A stretch of DNA of 42,978 nt from Planctomycetota bacterium (GTDB lineage: Bacteria; Planctomycetota; Planctomycetia; Pirellulales; Pirellulaceae). Every line of letters begins with the position of its first letter. Within the stretch, counting starts at the first letter, position 1. A program made the position numbers and the translations under genes. Positions 36,969 through 42,978 of this stretch are shown here, one piece after another. Under the pieces are notes generated by a model that made no database searches, was not told the DNA's origin, and saw only the letters and a program-made list of their open reading frames with translations. The stretch spans positions 1 through 42,978 of the forward strand of contig JAQCHP010000027.1 in assembly GCA_027619595.1 (NCBI GenBank), read 5' to 3'.

Positions 36969-37380
36969 CGATCGTTTTCCCTAAATCCTTGGGTATACGT
37001 GCAATTAAGCACGCAGGTAGCCCGGAATCCCTTCCCGCAATTCTGCGGAATCCCTTCTACCTAGGCTCGCCGTCTAGCAAGACAGCATGACACCCCAAGT
37101 CGTTATCGTCACGCACTAGGCCTTCGCGACAACTAACCGCCGCTCAGCTGCCTCAATCCTCCTCGTGGCATTGTCTGCCACGCCCCATGATAACCGGTCT
37201 CCCGGCCCAAGGGGAGCACCAATTAGGCGCGTCTCCCCCCAACACCCCCTGAATTAAGGGGCACCCGATCGCTTTGATCAGGCCAAATACCGGCAAAAAC
37301 TTCCCATTCGCCCTACTTTATTGCCACAACTCTCCTGTTAGACACTCTATTTAAAAAGAGCCGTCACGGGTGGTTCACAA
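36969..37380. other. Intergenic region with 12-bp repeat and hairpins
   Basis: About 410 bases between the MMPL gene and the tRNA-Sec 3' end, on opposite flanks of the mobile-element boundary. CGGAATCCCTTC occurs at 37023-37034 and 37046-37057. A perfect 7-bp hairpin CGTGGCA/TGCCACG (37164-37182, loop TTGTC) and a 5-bp one CCCCT/AGGGG (37246-37261) are seen, without T-tracts. On the minus strand a CTTTTTAAA follows the tRNA 3' side (around 37350), a possible weak terminator for the tRNA. No gene is seen. Confidence 0.5.
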
Positions 37381-37477
37381 CGGAAGCGCATGGGAATCGA
37401 ACCCACCGACGAAACGCATCACGCTCCGTCCAACGATTTTGAAGACCGTGCCCGAACACCAGTTGGGTCGCACTTCC
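37381..37477 (-). tRNA. selC: Selenocysteine tRNA (anticodon UCA)
   Basis: The minus strand reads as a 97-nt tRNA of the bacterial selenocysteine type. The acceptor stem has 8 bp (GGAAGTGC with GCGCTTCC, one G-U). The D stem is CCCAAC/GUUCGGG, 6 bp with a bulged C and a 4-base loop TGGT. The anticodon stem ACGGT/ATCGT (one G-U) bears loop CTTCAAA with anticodon TCA (complement at 37440-37442). A 9-bp variable arm GACGGAGCG/CGTTTCGTC has loop TGATG. The T arm is GTGGG/CCCAT around TTCGATT, giving the 8+5 bp stack of bacterial tRNA-Sec. Discriminator is G; CCA is not encoded. It delivers selenocysteine at UGA codons. Confidence 0.93.
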
Positions 37478-37668
37478 GACTCTATAAAACACGTGTTTCG
37501 TTATGAATTACAATCTATTTTACAACTTTCTTACAACCCGGCCGTTGTACAACACGTAAAAACATGGTAAAACCCGTGAATTGAAATAGGCCGAAACGGG
37601 GTCACATCCCGCTCGGCCTGACGAGTTCCCCAACACAAGGACAACCCGCCATCGCAAAGTCTACCAAA
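37478..37668. promoter_or_regulatory. Integrase leader with TACAAC repeats and 10-bp palindrome
   Basis: Three TACAAC copies are seen at 37521, 37532 and 37548 (11 and 16 bases apart), the last inside a perfect palindrome GTTGTACAAC (37544-37553). AAGGA near 37638-37642 is the only ribosome binding signal. The repeats could be binding sites for the integrase or a regulator; this is inference. No other structure is seen. Confidence 0.45.
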
Positions 37669-38805
37669 TTGCCGACTCCTGGGCAAAAGCCGACCCCCGA
37701 TTATCCGTTGACCTGGCACAAACGTGCTGAACGGTGGTGCAAGCGGGTAGGGTCGAAATTTTACTACTTCGACAAATGCCCCATCAAATCGCTGGAAGCA
37801 TGGAACGCAAGTAAGGAGATGCTCCTCCGGGGCTACGATCCCCGAAAAATCCAGACTGACCGGCTGGGGGTCCGCGAAGCGTGCAACATGTACCTCACGG
37901 AACTTAAGGCCAAGGAAGGACGTGGTGAAGTCGGCCCTCGCCGATTCATCGATATGCGAGTTTGCTGTCGCGGACTTGTCGATTCCTTGGGGGCCGATAC
38001 CCCTATCACCGCCTTGCATCCCGATCTATTTAGTCGCCTCCGTAGCGATCTCGCCAAACGGAAGCGTAGTCCCATCACCCTCAAGAACGAATTGACTCGG
38101 GTCAAGACGATTTTCAATTGGCTCGCGAAGCAGGGAAAGATCCAGTCGGTACCGCGTTACGGGGCAGATTTCAACGCACCTTCGGCCCGCCAACTGCGAG
38201 CACATCTATCTGGTAAATCAGACCCCACCTACACCAAGAGCGAGCTACTGGCCTTGCTGGGGGAATGTTCCGCGACGATGACGCCCATGGTACTCCTGGG
38301 CCTATCTGCCGGATTTGGTCCCACGGATTGTGTGATGCTCAGGGTAGATACAGACTTCACACAAGACATATTGACGGTACCCCGTAGCAAGACAGTCATC
38401 GATCGTCGATTTTGGGTGTGGCCAGAACTTCGCGAAGCAATCGCTTGGTACCGTCGTATTCGTCCCCAACCCGCAAACGACGAAGCGGCTCAACGCCTTT
38501 TCCTGACGAGCCGAGGGCTTCCGTGGGGTGACCCTAAGGACGCCGGCGACATATCTGTAGCCTTCACTCGGGCCGCCAAGCGAGCAGGTTGCTATTTGGA
38601 AGGGCGATCGTTCTACGGCCTGCGACACACAATGCTGAGTGCCTGCACCGACGTTGGAGATCCACTAGCCGAGAAATACCTGATGGGGCACGTGCGTTCC
38701 GACATTACGGAGACGTATCGCCATAAATTCCCCGATGCACGAATCACAAAACTATCTCAGCATATCCGAGATTGTCTGATTGGGTCGGCGGAGGTGTTGC
38801 CGTGA
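37669..38805 (+). CDS. Tyrosine recombinase/integrase with altered catalytic set
   Basis: This 378-residue integrase (from TTG 37669) has an N-terminal DNA-binding domain (SAM-like, about 60-160) and a catalytic domain (about 190-370). Visible catalytic residues are the box II Arg-His at FYGLRHTM (Arg319, His320), His341 in LMGHV and the nucleophile Tyr350 in SDITETYRHKF. The box I Arg of TGLR-type motifs is missing: here the sequence is SAGFGPTD, with Gly in place. The His before box II (HxLRH) is Tyr here. The likely native start is ATC at 37651 giving an IAKSTKLP N-terminus with AAGGA upstream; TTG 37669 is 27 bases from that site. Its stop overlaps the next GTG (GTGA). Confidence 0.9.
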   Translation: MPTPGQKPTPDYPLTWHKRAERWCKRVGSKFYYFDKCPIKSLEAWNASKEMLLRGYDPRKIQTDRLGVREACNMYLTELKAKEGRGEVGPRRFIDMRVCCRGLVDSLGADTPITALHPDLFSRLRSDLAKRKRSPITLKNELTRVKTIFNWLAKQGKIQSVPRYGADFNAPSARQLRAHLSGKSDPTYTKSELLALLGECSATMTPMVLLGLSAGFGPTDCVMLRVDTDFTQDILTVPRSKTVIDRRFWVWPELREAIAWYRRIRPQPANDEAAQRLFLTSRGLPWGDPKDAGDISVAFTRAAKRAGCYLEGRSFYGLRHTMLSACTDVGDPLAEKYLMGHVRSDITETYRHKFPDARITKLSQHIRDCLIGSAEVLP

Positions 38806-39446
38806 CTGACAGACGAACAGGAAAGATCTGGGATCGCACGACGGAAACCGAAGCACTGAGTGTCGCAAACGAAACTGAAGCTCTTGCGTTTTTCCGCCAA
38901 GTCTTGGCGACCGCCTTTACCGACTTGGAAGTATGGCCGCCTCCCATCGACGCGTTCGACGAAGGCGATCCGCGACGGCTAGATACGTTTCCACGGATTG
39001 TATCGCATACCCGTGACCGTGACGGAATCGTAGTTGAGTTCGAATTCAGTTCTGGTCGATTGCATACAGTAGACTACGTGGGCAGACCGGAAGTTGTTCT
39101 CGATTATTTGAATTCTATCGCCGGGGTTCAGGACTTGCTTTGCGATACGCCGACCAGCGTCCTTGCGGCGGCCGCTACAGGCTATCGGATTGGTTGCCTA
39201 TTCCAGCGTGCAAAATTAGAGTTCGAGTTGGGCGTCGAAAAACATGTCTCGCATTCCATCCGAATGAATGCCGGCGAGAAGCCTGCCAGTTTTCGGGAGA
39301 GGTACTCGTGGGAAATGGCCGCAGCGGGGCATCCCAAGGCTAGAAGTCGCAAGGTGGGGAAAATGAAAGACAAACTGGCAGTCGAATTCGATGTCGATCG
39401 CCGAACGATCGATCGTTGGTGCAAAGAGGACCGCGAATCCAAGTAG
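38802..39446 (+). CDS. HTH-containing hypothetical protein of the element
   Basis: The start is GTG 38802, which overlaps the integrase stop (GTGA) and has GGAGGTG six bases upstream; the frame also opens at TTG 38772. The 214-residue product is not in a known family. The C-terminal 35 residues have a basic and DNA-binding look: SRKVGKMKDKLAVEFDVDRRTIDRWCKED, where DVDRRTIDRW resembles a helix-turn-helix with recognition helix. The first 130 residues are acidic with Phe-rich pattern. Being translationally coupled to the integrase, it may regulate or assist recombination; this is a guess. Confidence 0.75.
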   Translation: MTDRRTGKIWDRTTETEALSVANETEALAFFRQVLATAFTDLEVWPPPIDAFDEGDPRRLDTFPRIVSHTRDRDGIVVEFEFSSGRLHTVDYVGRPEVVLDYLNSIAGVQDLLCDTPTSVLAAAATGYRIGCLFQRAKLEFELGVEKHVSHSIRMNAGEKPASFRERYSWEMAAAGHPKARSRKVGKMKDKLAVEFDVDRRTIDRWCKEDRESK

Positions 39447-39601
39447 CGACAACGCAATGTCGCTGCTCAGGGAAATTTCTCGCCTTTTCTAGGCAAACCA
39501 GCCGCATTAGTCCGCTGGAAACTACCGCAAGTCTTGGTGGAATCCGTAAAATTAAAGCGTACCTTGTGCTTTGATTCAGTTTCCTGCCGAAAGGATGTCC
39601 C

Positions 39602-39829
39602 ATGACTACATTTACTGTCAAGTCACTCGCGAGTCGCTGGCTGTGCTCGGAAAATTGTATTTACGAATTGATCAACCGGGGACATCTAAAGGCGATGACA
39701 TTGACACCTTCGCGAAGACGTCCGACCTACCGCATACTCTCGGAGGTTGTCGAGGCATACGAAGTCCGCATGAGAGCTGCGATATCGGCTCCAGTCAGAT
39801 CCGAAGGCGTCGTTCGCGAATTTGTTTGA
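39602..39829 (+). CDS. Excisionase/AlpA-like HTH protein
   Basis: The 75-residue protein (TVKSLASRWLCSENCIYELI, then NRGHLKAMTLTPSRRRPTYRI and LSEVVEAYE) has the layout of a winged helix-turn-helix of the excisionase/MerR-like HTH_17 group. It starts at ATG 39602 with AAAGGATG upstream. The usual roles are excisive recombination partner or early-gene regulator of an element; AlpA-type proteins do both. It stands between the coupled HTH gene and the replication gene, consistent with control of the element. The stop is followed closely by a hairpin. Confidence 0.85.
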   Translation: MTTFTVKSLASRWLCSENCIYELINRGHLKAMTLTPSRRRPTYRILSEVVEAYEVRMRAAISAPVRSEGVVREFV

Positions 39830-39838
39830 CATAAAAAA

Positions 39839-39856
39839 ACCCCGATCTCTCGGGGT
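39839..39856 (-). terminator. Intrinsic terminator, reading leftward
   Basis: ACCCCGA/TCGGGGT forms a 7-bp stem with loop TCTC at 39839-39856. On the minus strand it is followed by seven T (complement of 39833-39839), a good intrinsic terminator. All nearby genes read plus, so it may block antisense transcription or act in both directions. Confidence 0.7.
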
Positions 39857-39950
39857 CCTGCCGCAAGCGGCTGAATGTATTTTCGCAAAAGCATTTTAGC
39901 ACGATCGCGGCAGACTTTCAACTCACTTATTTTGAGAAGGAGTCGCCGTT

Positions 39951-42161
39951 ATGCACGAAGAAGTCGAATCGCAAATCGCAGTGACGGACCTTTCGATCAA
40001 GAGACTCAATCAATGGATTTGTTGGGACTTGATCGACGGCAAGAAAATACCCAAAAACGTCCATGGCCGGACAAGCGGCTCAAATCGAATCGCTGACTAC
40101 GTCGATTATCGAACCGCGTACAAGGCAGCCGAAGACCTCTCGATGATGGGGCCGGGCTGGTGCTTCATGCCCAACGGCGGGTACTGTGGCCTCGACCTCG
40201 ACGATTGCTTGCTAGACGTCTTCGATGAGGACTCATTCGCACCGTGGGCCGTGCCTATTATCGAACGGCTGAACGCCACGGGAACGTACTACGAACGCTC
40301 ACCATCGTTTACGGGCATCAAGGCTTGGTTTATCGGTGAACTGCCAACGCGACTTCGTAAGGTTAAAGCTCGCGTCGAGGATGGCATGATCGAACTATAT
40401 GGTCGGTCGCATCACTTCTTTACATGGACTGGCTGCCAGTGCCCGAACGCAGGAAATGAGGTCGCCGACGGCACTGCGTTCCTGGATTGGATTACTGATA
40501 CTTATTTCCCGGAGCCCGTCAGCGTACCCATCACGAAGTCGATCGGGGCATCCCTGATGGGCCAGGACCGGCTCGCCGCGTACGCGGCTAAGTTCGATTT
40601 GCCGTCACCAGGTGAACGGAACAATTGTGCGTTCCGATATTCTGGCCACCTGTTTTCGATTTTGGATGACCATGGCATGGCTCCCAGCGAAGAGCGGGTA
40701 TTGACTGTGATGCGTCAGTGGAACGCGCGGTTACCGGAACCGCTCGACGATTTGGAACTAAGCTCTGTGGTTGCGTCGGGTGGTAAAAATGGCACGCCAA
40801 GGGCAGCGAAGACGTCAAAGTTGAGGAATGGCAATGCTTCGGAGCTGAGTTATTCGGCGTTGCTAGGTGGGCCGAATGGGACACAATGCGAGACGCAACG
40901 CACAGGAGCGGAAGACGAGGAAGACGAGCAAGCGGAGGAAGCGGAGCAAGTCGACGTTGGGTCCTTGCTTGGTGCCGACGAGGTTCGTGAATCGTTGCGG
41001 ATCGAGTACGAAAGATACACACTTCCGGAACTGATGTCGCTCGATCTCAGGCAAGAATTTCTGATTAACAATTATCTGGTCAGTAAAGAGCCGTGCATTA
41101 TTTGCGGCCCTTCCAAGAGCCTGAAAACAACAGTGATGCTTGACCTCGCCGTGGCTCTTTCATCCGGCCGAAAGCATTTGAATTCTGAAGAACTGCAAGT
41201 GAATCGCCAAGTGCGAGTTGGTGTTATGTCCGGCGAGAGCGGGTTGCCGACAATTCAAGAAACCTTAGGTCGCATCTGCCTATCAATGCCCGTCGAATAC
41301 GATCAGATTGGAAGCAACTTGATTTTGAGTTCCGACCTGCCAAAGTTTGGCGACCTCATGCACATGGATGCCGTCAAGAGATTCATCGAGCGAGACCGGC
41401 TAGAAATTTTGATGATCGATCCCGCCTATCTGGCGATTCCGGTCGGCGAGGGGGCGTCGAACATGTTTCTCGTGGGCGAGATGATTCGAAGTATCAGCGA
41501 AATTTGCGCGAAGATGGAATGTATGATGACGCTTGTCCATCACGCCCGGAAGAACCGCCAAAACGAATTTGAGCCAATGGATCTAGGCGACATCGCATGG
41601 TCGGGGTTCGACCAATTCGCTCGACAATGGCTGATGGTATCCAGGCGGGTTGCCTACAAGCGTGGGACGGGCCAGCACAAGCTCTGGCTGACTTCAGGAG
41701 GGTCGGCGGGCCACTCGGGAGTCTGGGGGGTGGATGTAGAAGAGGGCGTTAGAAGCGAGTCCGTTGGCCGCACATGGGACGTTCAAGTTTTGTCGGAGGA
41801 CGAGGCACGGGAGTCGCGAGAAGGTGACCGGAGCCAATACGCCGTTTCGGTCGCCCTAGATCGACGGGCCAAATTGAACGACGCCCGGTTCGCCGAGGAC
41901 CAACGGTTGATTCTGAAGTTTTTGAAAAAGCACCAGCCTTGCACGATGACGAAAATACGCTCGGGGTCCACTGCCCGGCAAGCACAAGTGCCCCATCTGC
42001 TTGAAATTCTCGCCGAGGAGGAGGAGGTCTCGCAACGGGCAAGTCGTGTCAACGGCAAAACGGTTATGAAATATTGGCTTTTCGCTGACGCCCCAGACGA
42101 GGAATCTGCCGTGGCGACTGCGTGCCAGACAGAAACAGAGGAGTCACCTGCCCCCTTTTGA
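39951..42161 (+). CDS. Primase-polymerase/helicase fusion of the element
   Basis: A 736-residue replication protein with AAGGAG about 9 bases before the ATG. The N-terminal half (about 10-190) has a prim-pol-like pattern: GGYCGLDLDD (79-85, metal-binding Asp pair), YYERSPSFTGIKAWF (about 113-127, like the SPSG.G.H motif with His replaced by Lys) and MIELYGRSHHFFTWTG (146-161). A charged acidic linker (320-335, EDEEDEQAEEAEQ) follows. The C-terminal half is a RepA/DnaB-type hexameric ATPase: Walker A GPSKSLKTT (386-394), Walker B LEILMIDP (484-491), LVHHARK (528-534). A wHTH-like end lies at about 645-710. It probably starts and unwinds the element's DNA. Confidence 0.9.
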   Translation: MHEEVESQIAVTDLSIKRLNQWICWDLIDGKKIPKNVHGRTSGSNRIADYVDYRTAYKAAEDLSMMGPGWCFMPNGGYCGLDLDDCLLDVFDEDSFAPWAVPIIERLNATGTYYERSPSFTGIKAWFIGELPTRLRKVKARVEDGMIELYGRSHHFFTWTGCQCPNAGNEVADGTAFLDWITDTYFPEPVSVPITKSIGASLMGQDRLAAYAAKFDLPSPGERNNCAFRYSGHLFSILDDHGMAPSEERVLTVMRQWNARLPEPLDDLELSSVVASGGKNGTPRAAKTSKLRNGNASELSYSALLGGPNGTQCETQRTGAEDEEDEQAEEAEQVDVGSLLGADEVRESLRIEYERYTLPELMSLDLRQEFLINNYLVSKEPCIICGPSKSLKTTVMLDLAVALSSGRKHLNSEELQVNRQVRVGVMSGESGLPTIQETLGRICLSMPVEYDQIGSNLILSSDLPKFGDLMHMDAVKRFIERDRLEILMIDPAYLAIPVGEGASNMFLVGEMIRSISEICAKMECMMTLVHHARKNRQNEFEPMDLGDIAWSGFDQFARQWLMVSRRVAYKRGTGQHKLWLTSGGSAGHSGVWGVDVEEGVRSESVGRTWDVQVLSEDEARESREGDRSQYAVSVALDRRAKLNDARFAEDQRLILKFLKKHQPCTMTKIRSGSTARQAQVPHLLEILAEEEEVSQRASRVNGKTVMKYWLFADAPDEESAVATACQTETEESPAPF

Positions 42162-42185
42162 GCCGTTCGCTCAGAGGTAAAAGCG

Positions 42186-42278
42186 GTGCGTTTGGTCCGT
42201 TTGCAAACTTTACCGAACGGACCGCAGGCAGCTTTGAGGAGATAAGTGCGTTTGCCCTATGTATATAGGCAAACGCAC
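42186..42278. repeat. GTGCGTTTG repeats with 14-bp bulged hairpin
   Basis: GTGCGTTTG occurs directly at 42186-42194 and 42246-42254 and inverted (CAAACGCAC) at 42270-42278. The last two form a stem of about 13-14 bp with one bulged C and loop GTAT. GGTCCGTT (42194-42201) pairs with AACGGACC (42216-42223). Such iteron-like repeats beside a primase-helicase gene suit an origin. Confidence 0.65.
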
Positions 42279-42354
42279 CTCCCTGCCTGCACGTCGTTCG
42301 TCAGTGGTCGAAAATCTTCAAAAAAGGAAAACGAAAAATGGAACGACAATTATG

Positions 42355-42366
42355 GTGACTTGTCAC
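42355..42366. promoter_or_regulatory. Palindrome GTGACTTGTCAC
   Basis: A 12-base near-perfect palindrome (GTGAC-TT-GTCAC) inside the repeat-rich gap. It could be an operator for a dimeric HTH protein such as the two element-encoded ones; nothing else supports it. Confidence 0.45.
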
Positions 42367-42444
42367 AATGTTTATGCGGTACGAGATAACTGAAAGATCA
42401 TGAAGGACATGCGGTATGCACTGCGGTGAAAGAGCACGATGTAT

Positions 42445-42541
42445 ATGGGGTATCGGGGGTCATTTGGGTCCTTTCCGGGGGGGGCCCGAACGGGCTTCGC
42501 CAGGGACATCGAGAGGGGGAAACTTGCACAAGATACCCCAT
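42445..42541. repeat. 10-bp inverted repeat ATGGGGTATC
   Basis: ATGGGGTATC at 42445-42454 and GATACCCCAT at 42532-42541 are perfect inverted copies 77 bases apart. A GCCCG/CGGGC hairpin (42484-42495) lies inside, so the region could form a larger structure. Confidence 0.6.
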
Positions 42542-42554
42542 TTTAACATCATAT

Positions 42555-42579
42555 GGGGGGGGTAGATTGGGTGGGTGGG
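42555..42579 (+). other. Putative G-quadruplex motif
   Basis: Eight G at 42555-42562, then TAGATT, and GGGTGGGTGGG at 42569-42579 give four G-runs of three or more with short loops. It lies 37 bases upstream of the terminase-like start. Confidence 0.6.
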
Positions 42580-42615
42580 ATGGCAGACAAAGCTAGAAAT
42601 TCCAAGGGGTGAAGA

Positions 42616-42978
42616 GTGCCATCAGGTGGAGCGAAGGGGACGCCGGCCGGCAAACCGAAAGCGACCGGGCCTAAGCCGGTTACCGCGGCCGAGTCGATTG
42701 TGATCATGTCCAACTTGAAGTCGCAGGCCGTGGCGTGGTTCTTGGGCTACAGGACACTTCAGGTGTCGTGGAACTTACCGCAGCAGGCCGACAGTACGTA
42801 CAACGCGGCCGAGGCAGTCCGATGGCTGGAGAACTCGTACAAAGAAAAAGCACAAAGCCAAGATGCGAACAACGCCGACGACGCCCTCGAATACAAGCGG
42901 CGCCTCGAAGCCAAGAAGCTGGAGATACAGTTGCTCGAACTAGAAAAGTTGGTCGTACCGACGGCCATGGTCCAGAAC
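42616..42978 (+). CDS. Terminase small subunit-like protein (partial, 3' cut)
   Basis: The frame starts at GTG 42616 with AGGGG about 6 bases upstream and a TGA immediately before it, and stays open to the window edge (121 codons). An ATG at 42706 is an alternative start. The product has a Gly/Lys/Pro-rich start (KGTPAGKPKATGPKP), then a helix-turn-helix-like WFLGYRTLQVSWNLP and a coiled coil ending with RRLEAKKLEIQLLELEKLVV and PTAMV. The last part resembles phage terminase small subunits of the Nu1/DUF1441 sort, which recognise DNA for packaging. The call is moderate as the C-terminus is missing. Confidence 0.65.
   Translation, partial: MPSGGAKGTPAGKPKATGPKPVTAAESIVIMSNLKSQAVAWFLGYRTLQVSWNLPQQADSTYNAAEAVRWLENSYKEKAQSQDANNADDALEYKRRLEAKKLEIQLLELEKLVVPTAMVQN

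Follow-up and report, generated by a model that had tools for sequence, protein, structure and literature searches.

Gram-negative phage-inducible chromosomal islands (PICIs), as described in PMC6092414, are transcribed one way, rightward, and carry, directly downstream of the replication gene, iterons on either side of an AT-rich stretch. The phage-inducible chromosomal minimalist islands (PICMIs) of Vibrio are defined in PMC10803314 by an integrase, an AlpA protein (PF05930/PF12728) and a primase with DUF3987 and DUF5906; according to the same source, their iolg gene shares four bases with int and is required for excision. A further group, the capsid-forming PICIs (cf-PICIs), is presented in PMC10690885 as having its own capsid genes with both terminase subunits. 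The locus considered here lies at the right end of contig C82, a complete contig of 42978 bp (hereafter the window, that is the whole stretch of DNA analysed), in a Planctomycetota genome of 281 contigs that is 96.4% complete. There, an integrase, an excisionase-like gene, a primase, iterons, a cos-type (cohesive-end) block and a gene resembling that of a small terminase subunit (TerS) are packed into about 5.3 kb. This element is likely to be a PICI/PICMI-like integrative phage satellite of cos type. It would probably spread by borrowing the particles of another virus; such borrowing is proposed because integration, replication and packaging signals seem to be present and no shell genes are found as far as the sequence reaches.

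Gene block of the element and its described counterparts

All five genes of the element are on the + strand (integrase, gene 2, HTH_17 gene, primase-helicase and TerS-like gene), and no virion structure gene is found up to the contig end at 42978, which truncates the TerS-like gene. As read from the DNA letters, the gene set, the iterons and a conserved block before terS are there, as follows.

37669..38805, + strand: tyrosine integrase, 378 aa (PF00589, 6.4e-7; phrog_1, 5.5e-21)
38802..39446, + strand: gene 2, 214 aa, positional analogue of PICMI iolg (from the sequence)
39602..39829, + strand: HTH_17 / excisionase-like gene, 75 aa, a weak match (PF12728, 21.5 bits; phrog_2907, E=0.0033)
39951..42161, + strand: primase-helicase, 736 aa (AAA_25, 1.1e-16; PriCT_1, 9.6e-6; phrog_13901, 1.7e-18)
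42186..42278: five iterons GTSCGTTYG, at 42186 (+), 42195 (+), 42214 (−), 42246 (+) and 42270 (−)
42459..42540, + strand: cos-type block with the core TTTGGGTCCTTTCCGGGGGG (42463-42482), shared with contigs C192 and C156 of the same genome and with the phage contig L282
42616..42978, + strand: TerS-like gene with an uncertain start codon, incomplete at the contig end (phrog_57, E=0.0016; paralogs)
42877..42978, + strand: last 102 bp of the contig, identical to contig C192

The original prediction had described a one-direction block of integrase, helix-turn-helix (HTH) gene, excisionase-like HTH gene, primase-helicase, repeat-rich gap and TerS-like gene. The direction holds for all five genes, and families were matched for the integrase, the primase-helicase and the TerS-like gene, the last by a phrog_57 score that is weak alone. 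The excisionase-like gene was recovered, weakly (phrog_2907), and the separate HTH gene was not: gene 2, which would be that gene, matches nothing in Pfam at E<=0.1. The repeat-rich gap does exist, with 5 copies of GTSCGTTYG in 93 bp and 3 elsewhere in the 43-kb window.

Like the Gram-negative PICIs of the EcCICFT073 type, as these are described in PMC6092414 and PMC6739421, the block shows a one-way order with an integrase, an AlpA-like HTH gene, a putative cos site, a primase with iterons 3′ of its gene and no virion genes, here up to the contig end. Unlike EcCICFT073, which by those accounts relies on the helper's TerS with the protein Rpp, the window has a TerS-like gene directly behind the block. 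The host phylum also differs; the likeness is one of gene order and features. Another parallel is with the Staphylococcus aureus pathogenicity islands (SaPIs) that have their own TerS (PMC10690885, PMC6739421): as for these islands in the accounts cited, the satellite TerS would be expected to redirect the large terminase subunit (TerL) of the helper. Unlike SaPIs, for which these sources give pac sites, the window has a site of cos-type appearance, and its terminase partner would be of the gpA type.

With the PICMIs, as portrayed in PMC10803314, the element shares a small number of genes and the succession of an integrase, a second gene sharing 4 nt with it, an AlpA-like gene and a primase. 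The GTG start of gene 2 overlaps the integrase stop by 4 nt (GTGA, 38802-38805), a resemblance to iolg in position. Measured against the PICMI definition of that source, the integrase is present, PF12728 falls below its cut-off and the primase shows AAA_25 and PriCT_1 rather than DUF3987 and DUF5906. Unlike PICMIs, which are stated there to integrate next to fis, the element has tRNA-Sec as neighbour on its visible left side. It also differs in carrying TerS and a cos-type block, 'terminase' not being a word of the PICMI text (PMC10803314).

Iterons, TerS paralogs and the block before terS

The 9-bp iterons begin 24 bp behind the primase stop and all five lie within 117 bp of it, that is 3′ of the replication gene as in PICIs. 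An AT-rich part (G+C 0.445, 42200-42399) is found among and to the right of the iterons, which do not cleanly flank it. Over the whole window, GTSCGTTYG has 8 matches; 100 shuffles average 2.9, and a count of 8 is reached in 3 of them. For five iterons in 120 bp, a Poisson estimate from the rate elsewhere in the window, corrected for the number of places, is about 2e-10, the pattern having been picked after inspection of the region. From its sequence and position, the iteron cluster is probably the replication origin.

Two other contigs of the genome bear on the right end of the element. Contig C192 has 102 bp identical to the window end, probably the point where the assembly branches, and contig C156 is 81% identical over 67 bp. 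Both encode complete TerS-like paralogs, of 159 aa (C192; phrog_57, 1.8e-4) and 154 aa (C156; no PHROG match at 0.05). Where aligned with that of C192, the TerS paralogs are 55-56% identical, and those of C192 and C156 keep a C-terminal half that can be aligned with phage TerS. A structure model of the window's TerS fragment reached a mean predicted local distance difference test score (pLDDT) of 58 and was not used. Behind the TerS genes of C192 and C156, no TerL-like gene is seen among neighbouring frames named by eye, with no family scans. These frames are an IS66-like piece (IS, insertion sequence), a PEP-CTERM-like frame and a reverse-transcriptase-like frame in C192, and an IS5-like piece and a 487-aa frame in C156. 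C192 and C156 also share a stretch of 41 bp at 98% identity (L071 3318-3358, L072 1841-1881), which runs across the stop codons of the two TerS genes, diverged elsewhere, and adjoins transposase-like sequence; it could be an element end.

It may be imagined, in view of the IS-element-like pieces adjoining the C192 and C156 copies and of a window TerS that is unreadable to its end, that the locus is a remnant, namely a decaying prophage or satellite that no longer moves and whose genes are kept by chance. This is improbable, since the four complete genes are open frames, the iterons and the block are undamaged, and the block stands out by its conservation from the DNA around it. In a three-way alignment of the window, C192 and C156 upstream of TerS, about 75 bp are conserved, and the flanking DNA is not. 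The first core pattern occurs without mismatch at exactly three places in the genome, each of them in front of a TerS gene, and with two mismatches at one more; its reversed control occurs with two mismatches at three places.

In phage lambda, cos lies before the TerS gene. The lambda TerS recognises the R elements of cosB, as recounted in PMC6739421. From its sequence and its position, we infer that the block in the window is a cos-type packaging site. A scan with TTGGGTCCTTTNCNGNGGG gave 4 viral and 54 genome matches. All 58 were inspected, and the window's longer block behind the core was found only in this genome; neighbouring frames were looked at for 11 of the 58, three of which have a TerS-like frame 92-113 bp downstream (L081, L121, L130). 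A second pattern, GGGTCCTTTNCNGGGGG, has 37 viral matches, and in 17 of them a gpA-type TerL (called by blastp at E<=1e-5 to the TerL of L081 or G281) starts within 3 kb downstream on the same strand. Without the three loci already known, the count is 16 of 34; with the reversed pattern, it is 0 of 15. Three pairs among the 17 cases look near-identical at the site (L235/L249, L246/L259, L239/L250), so that about 14 are independent. Searches of named phages with the block gave only matches of 18-21 bases at E about 10, and the single-strand DNA fold of the block is no better than that of shuffles.

The same data bear on whether the element is packaged at all. The TerS-like protein might be a DNA-binding regulator and the block its operator, within a non-packaged integrative element: TerS proteins carry a winged-HTH domain, and the TerS-like Rpp of PICIs acts by binding phage TerS, as reported in PMC6739421. 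Such a situation is very improbable, as the core precedes terS-terL in many viral contigs and the paralogs of C192 and C156 retain the C-terminal half that aligns with phage TerS.

Terminase genes and relatives in phages and other genomes

There is no convincing TerL in the 96.4%-complete genome, where two TerL families were searched. phrog_15 has no match (the family matches 4 of 14 control genomes), and phrog_2 has a single match, at E=0.0019 and with an inner stop (13 of 14 control genomes matched). With respect to the cf-PICIs, no capsid genes are found up to the contig end, and no convincing TerL in the genome within these two families.

Viral contigs show what may follow such a core in a complete phage. 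In L282 (IMGVR_UViG_3300032024_000167), a 43.9-kb viral contig found using the TerS of G281, a block in which both halves of the window's block recur lies about 120 bp before TerS (phrog_57, 7.5e-7), which is followed by a TerL (phrog_15, 4.5e-30), a head protease (phrog_53, 1.6e-64) and a major head protein (phrog_1005, 1e-40). The phage contig L081 has a TerS (phrog_57, 3e-21), then a TerL (phrog_15, 5e-193). Its record, G449, carries integrase-like and repressor-like genes, the core, TerS, TerL and tail-like genes (named by eye except for TerS and TerL) and reads as a temperate phage. L248 (IMGVR_UViG_3300027640_000003) has a TerS (phrog_57, 7.8e-6) about 120 bp downstream of the core, with little DNA beyond. 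The TerS proteins of L248 and L282 resemble those of planctomycete islands, and both contigs are candidates for planctomycete phages. In L263, TerS- and TerL-like frames lie on the opposite strand (by eye). The near-identical IMG/VR contigs L239 and L250 have a 471-aa ParB/methyltransferase-like frame between core and TerL, recalling the methyltransferase of the G281 islands described below.

In this light, the window could be the beginning of an ordinary temperate prophage with TerL, capsid and tail genes beyond the contig end: L282 and G449 show the same core before terS and then terL, and the contig ends at exactly the terS point. This is an unlikely reading, given the TerL result for phrog_2 and phrog_15, the C192 and C156 copies without a TerL-like gene behind TerS, and the presence of just four genes between the left end of the element and TerS.

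The satellite reading also draws on similar elements in other genomes. In Hydrogenedentota, locus L121 has the order HTH_17 (5.7e-10), a 340-aa gene, an AAA_25 helicase (2.3e-14), the core, TerS (phrog_57, 1.6e-4), a small gene and an integrase whose end overlaps tRNA-Arg; this similar element speaks for a satellite, its genome (G448) having no phrog_15 match. phrog_15 has no match in G134 either, and matches in G449 and in G246, a genome from the order of the window's host. In the planctomycete locus L130, the TerS-like frame is identified by eye and alignment only.

TerS-TerL islands form a second group. The TerS profile matches 6 of 129 genomes of the family, own genome included, and a TerL stands directly after the TerS relative in G007, G281 and G031 (scored for G281, by eye for the others). 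The TerL of G281 matches phrog_15 (9.6e-56), PF05876 and PF20454. The one-contig chromosome of G281 (L161, L162, L186, L187) has two islands with the same TerS-TerL module and different recombinases and cargo, which share a 5.4-kb stretch at 95%. Copy 1 carries a tyrosine integrase, an HNH-like gene, an HTH/excisionase-like gene (phrog_66, 3e-6), a primase, a 1538-aa gene matching PADLOC PDC-M54A, a ParB/methyltransferase, TerS and TerL. In copy 2, a serine-recombinase-like gene is present (by eye), and the middle part holds other genes. No PHROG match to portal, capsid or tail was obtained among ten scanned proteins of copy 1, a scan that left out the 74- and 275-aa genes between primase and TerL and most genes right of TerL; about 8 kb right of TerL were judged by eye. 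The window is like the G281 and G031 islands in its homologous TerS and, for copy 1 of G281, in its integrase, excisionase-like HTH gene and primase. It differs from them by the TerL that they carry and by the large cargo genes of G281. No exact core is present at the TerS-TerL islands of G281 and G031; a looser GGTACTTCCRGG before TerS in G281 and in one G031 copy is at most suggestive.

Primase relatives occur in 26 of 60 genomes, own genome included, and G017 alone holds 13 relatives of the ATPase part of the primase-helicase. Searched by peptide patterns, the primase gave no relatives in genome contigs or viral contigs; in plasmids, 18 records give partial matches under 60%. Named phages gave no match to the C192 TerS or the primase and none to the L081 TerS, and viral contigs none to the own TerS profile. 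A second island of the genome, in contig C176 (L023 2021-7874), comprises an integrase, a gene of 236 aa, an HTH-like gene and a primase of its own, with a different C-terminal half. Its integrase is 24% identical to that of the window (E=4e-4) and 50% identical to that of G134; gene 2 shows no similarity to its C176 counterpart.

Several points weigh against a satellite. The contig stops inside TerS, so TerL or virion genes could come next, and the genome search was confined to two TerL families, leaving out portal and capsid. The scores of the HTH_17 gene (21.5 bits, under the Pfam cut-off of 27) and, taken alone, of the window's TerS (phrog_57, E=0.0016) are weak. No att sites, excised circle or helper are known for the element, the C176 island shows no such core, and the block's role as cos is putative. 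The choice of both core patterns followed inspection of the sequence, and, in 396 genomes of the order, the 20-base core with one mismatch occurs at 16 places, the same number as its reversed control. Three of these 16 places are in the window's genome, one (L144) is the L130 case, and one (L137, in G134) precedes a 94-aa TerS-like frame, seen by eye and without PHROG match, and then an integrase. Core counts in the order therefore say little, and the evidence is the position before terS.

Insertion site, proposed cycle and significance

Two further features lie to the left of and within the element.

37382..37477, − strand: tRNA-Sec, neighbour of the element (Rfam RF01852, 65 bits, cut-off 47)
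39836..39886, − strand: possible short antisense RNA in the primase leader, a hypothesis from promoter- and terminator-like matches and the fold

The left neighbours of the element are the tRNA-Sec and an MMPL-family gene. The original prediction of an element beside tRNA-Sec is right as to the adjacent tRNA, although ARAGORN reports no tRNA gene at that position. RF01852 has matches in 60 of 60 genomes, 45 of them above cut-off, and in 14 of 14 controls, 5 above cut-off; as all controls match too, the weak matches are probably other tRNAs. Integrative elements of such a type usually lie at the 3′ end of a tRNA. The attachment repeat that was to be looked for did not appear: no convincing repeat of 37330-37690 is found elsewhere in the genome, in which the right end of the element is missing, the best match being 46 bp at 79% (E=0.01). 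Insertion at tRNA-Sec is unsupported because the integrase sits on the 5′ side and no att repeat was found, and tRNA-Sec is not upheld as attachment site. The predicted satellite-type element itself stands, on the gene set, iterons, cos-type block, TerS and lack of a convincing TerL. Among the tRNA-Sec loci listed, that of L216 (contig C25 of G015) is likewise flanked 5′ by an integrase-like frame (by eye), an arrangement that keeps the attachment idea alive. An IS66-like gene as insertion target was not upheld, the 41-bp stretch at the TerS stop not being found near the window's integrase. No att repeats of use were obtained for copy 1 of G281 and for C176.

As to the primase leader, the − strand shows a match of promoter type at 39921-39893 and, at 39859-39836, a strong hairpin of terminator type; the two could bracket a short RNA antisense to the leader. 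The fold of 39834-39890 has z=-3.16, with 1 of 200 shuffles as stable; promoter- and terminator-like matches are not clearly commoner in the 39834-39921 region than in shuffles.

If the element is a satellite, the following cycle may be envisaged. The integrase, with the HTH_17 protein and perhaps gene 2, would insert and excise the element. The primase-helicase would replicate it from the iterons just behind its own gene. The satellite TerS would then bind the cos-type block in front of terS and recruit the gpA-type TerL, the procapsid and the tail of a co-infecting phage, whereby the satellite DNA would be packaged and transferred. We infer excision, the mode of replication, the binding of the block by TerS and the recruitment of helper TerL and particle from the gene content and sites described above.

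More tentatively, the window may belong to an undescribed cos-type satellite lineage in Planctomycetota and Hydrogenedentota, whose packaging site would be common to a broad group of gpA-terminase phages. This lineage would span TerS-only elements (the window, L121 and perhaps a truncated one in G134) and TerS+TerL islands (G281, G031) whose recombinase and cargo can be exchanged, and the primase of the window may be under antisense-RNA control. In the open-licence literature, no report of phage satellites in planctomycetes was found, nor, among the matches listed, of GGGTCCTTT together with 'cos site'.

Planctomycete phages are little known. If the block is indeed cos, the short core GGGTCCTTTNCNGGGGG before the TerS gene would be a handle for finding phages and satellites in metagenomes, and, in phyla that lack phage genetics, could link satellites to their possible helpers. 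If the satellite reading is true, packaging by an own TerS with a phage-type cos site would be intermediate between SaPIs and Gram-negative cos PICIs, and satellite biology would be extended to planctomycetes and Hydrogenedentota.

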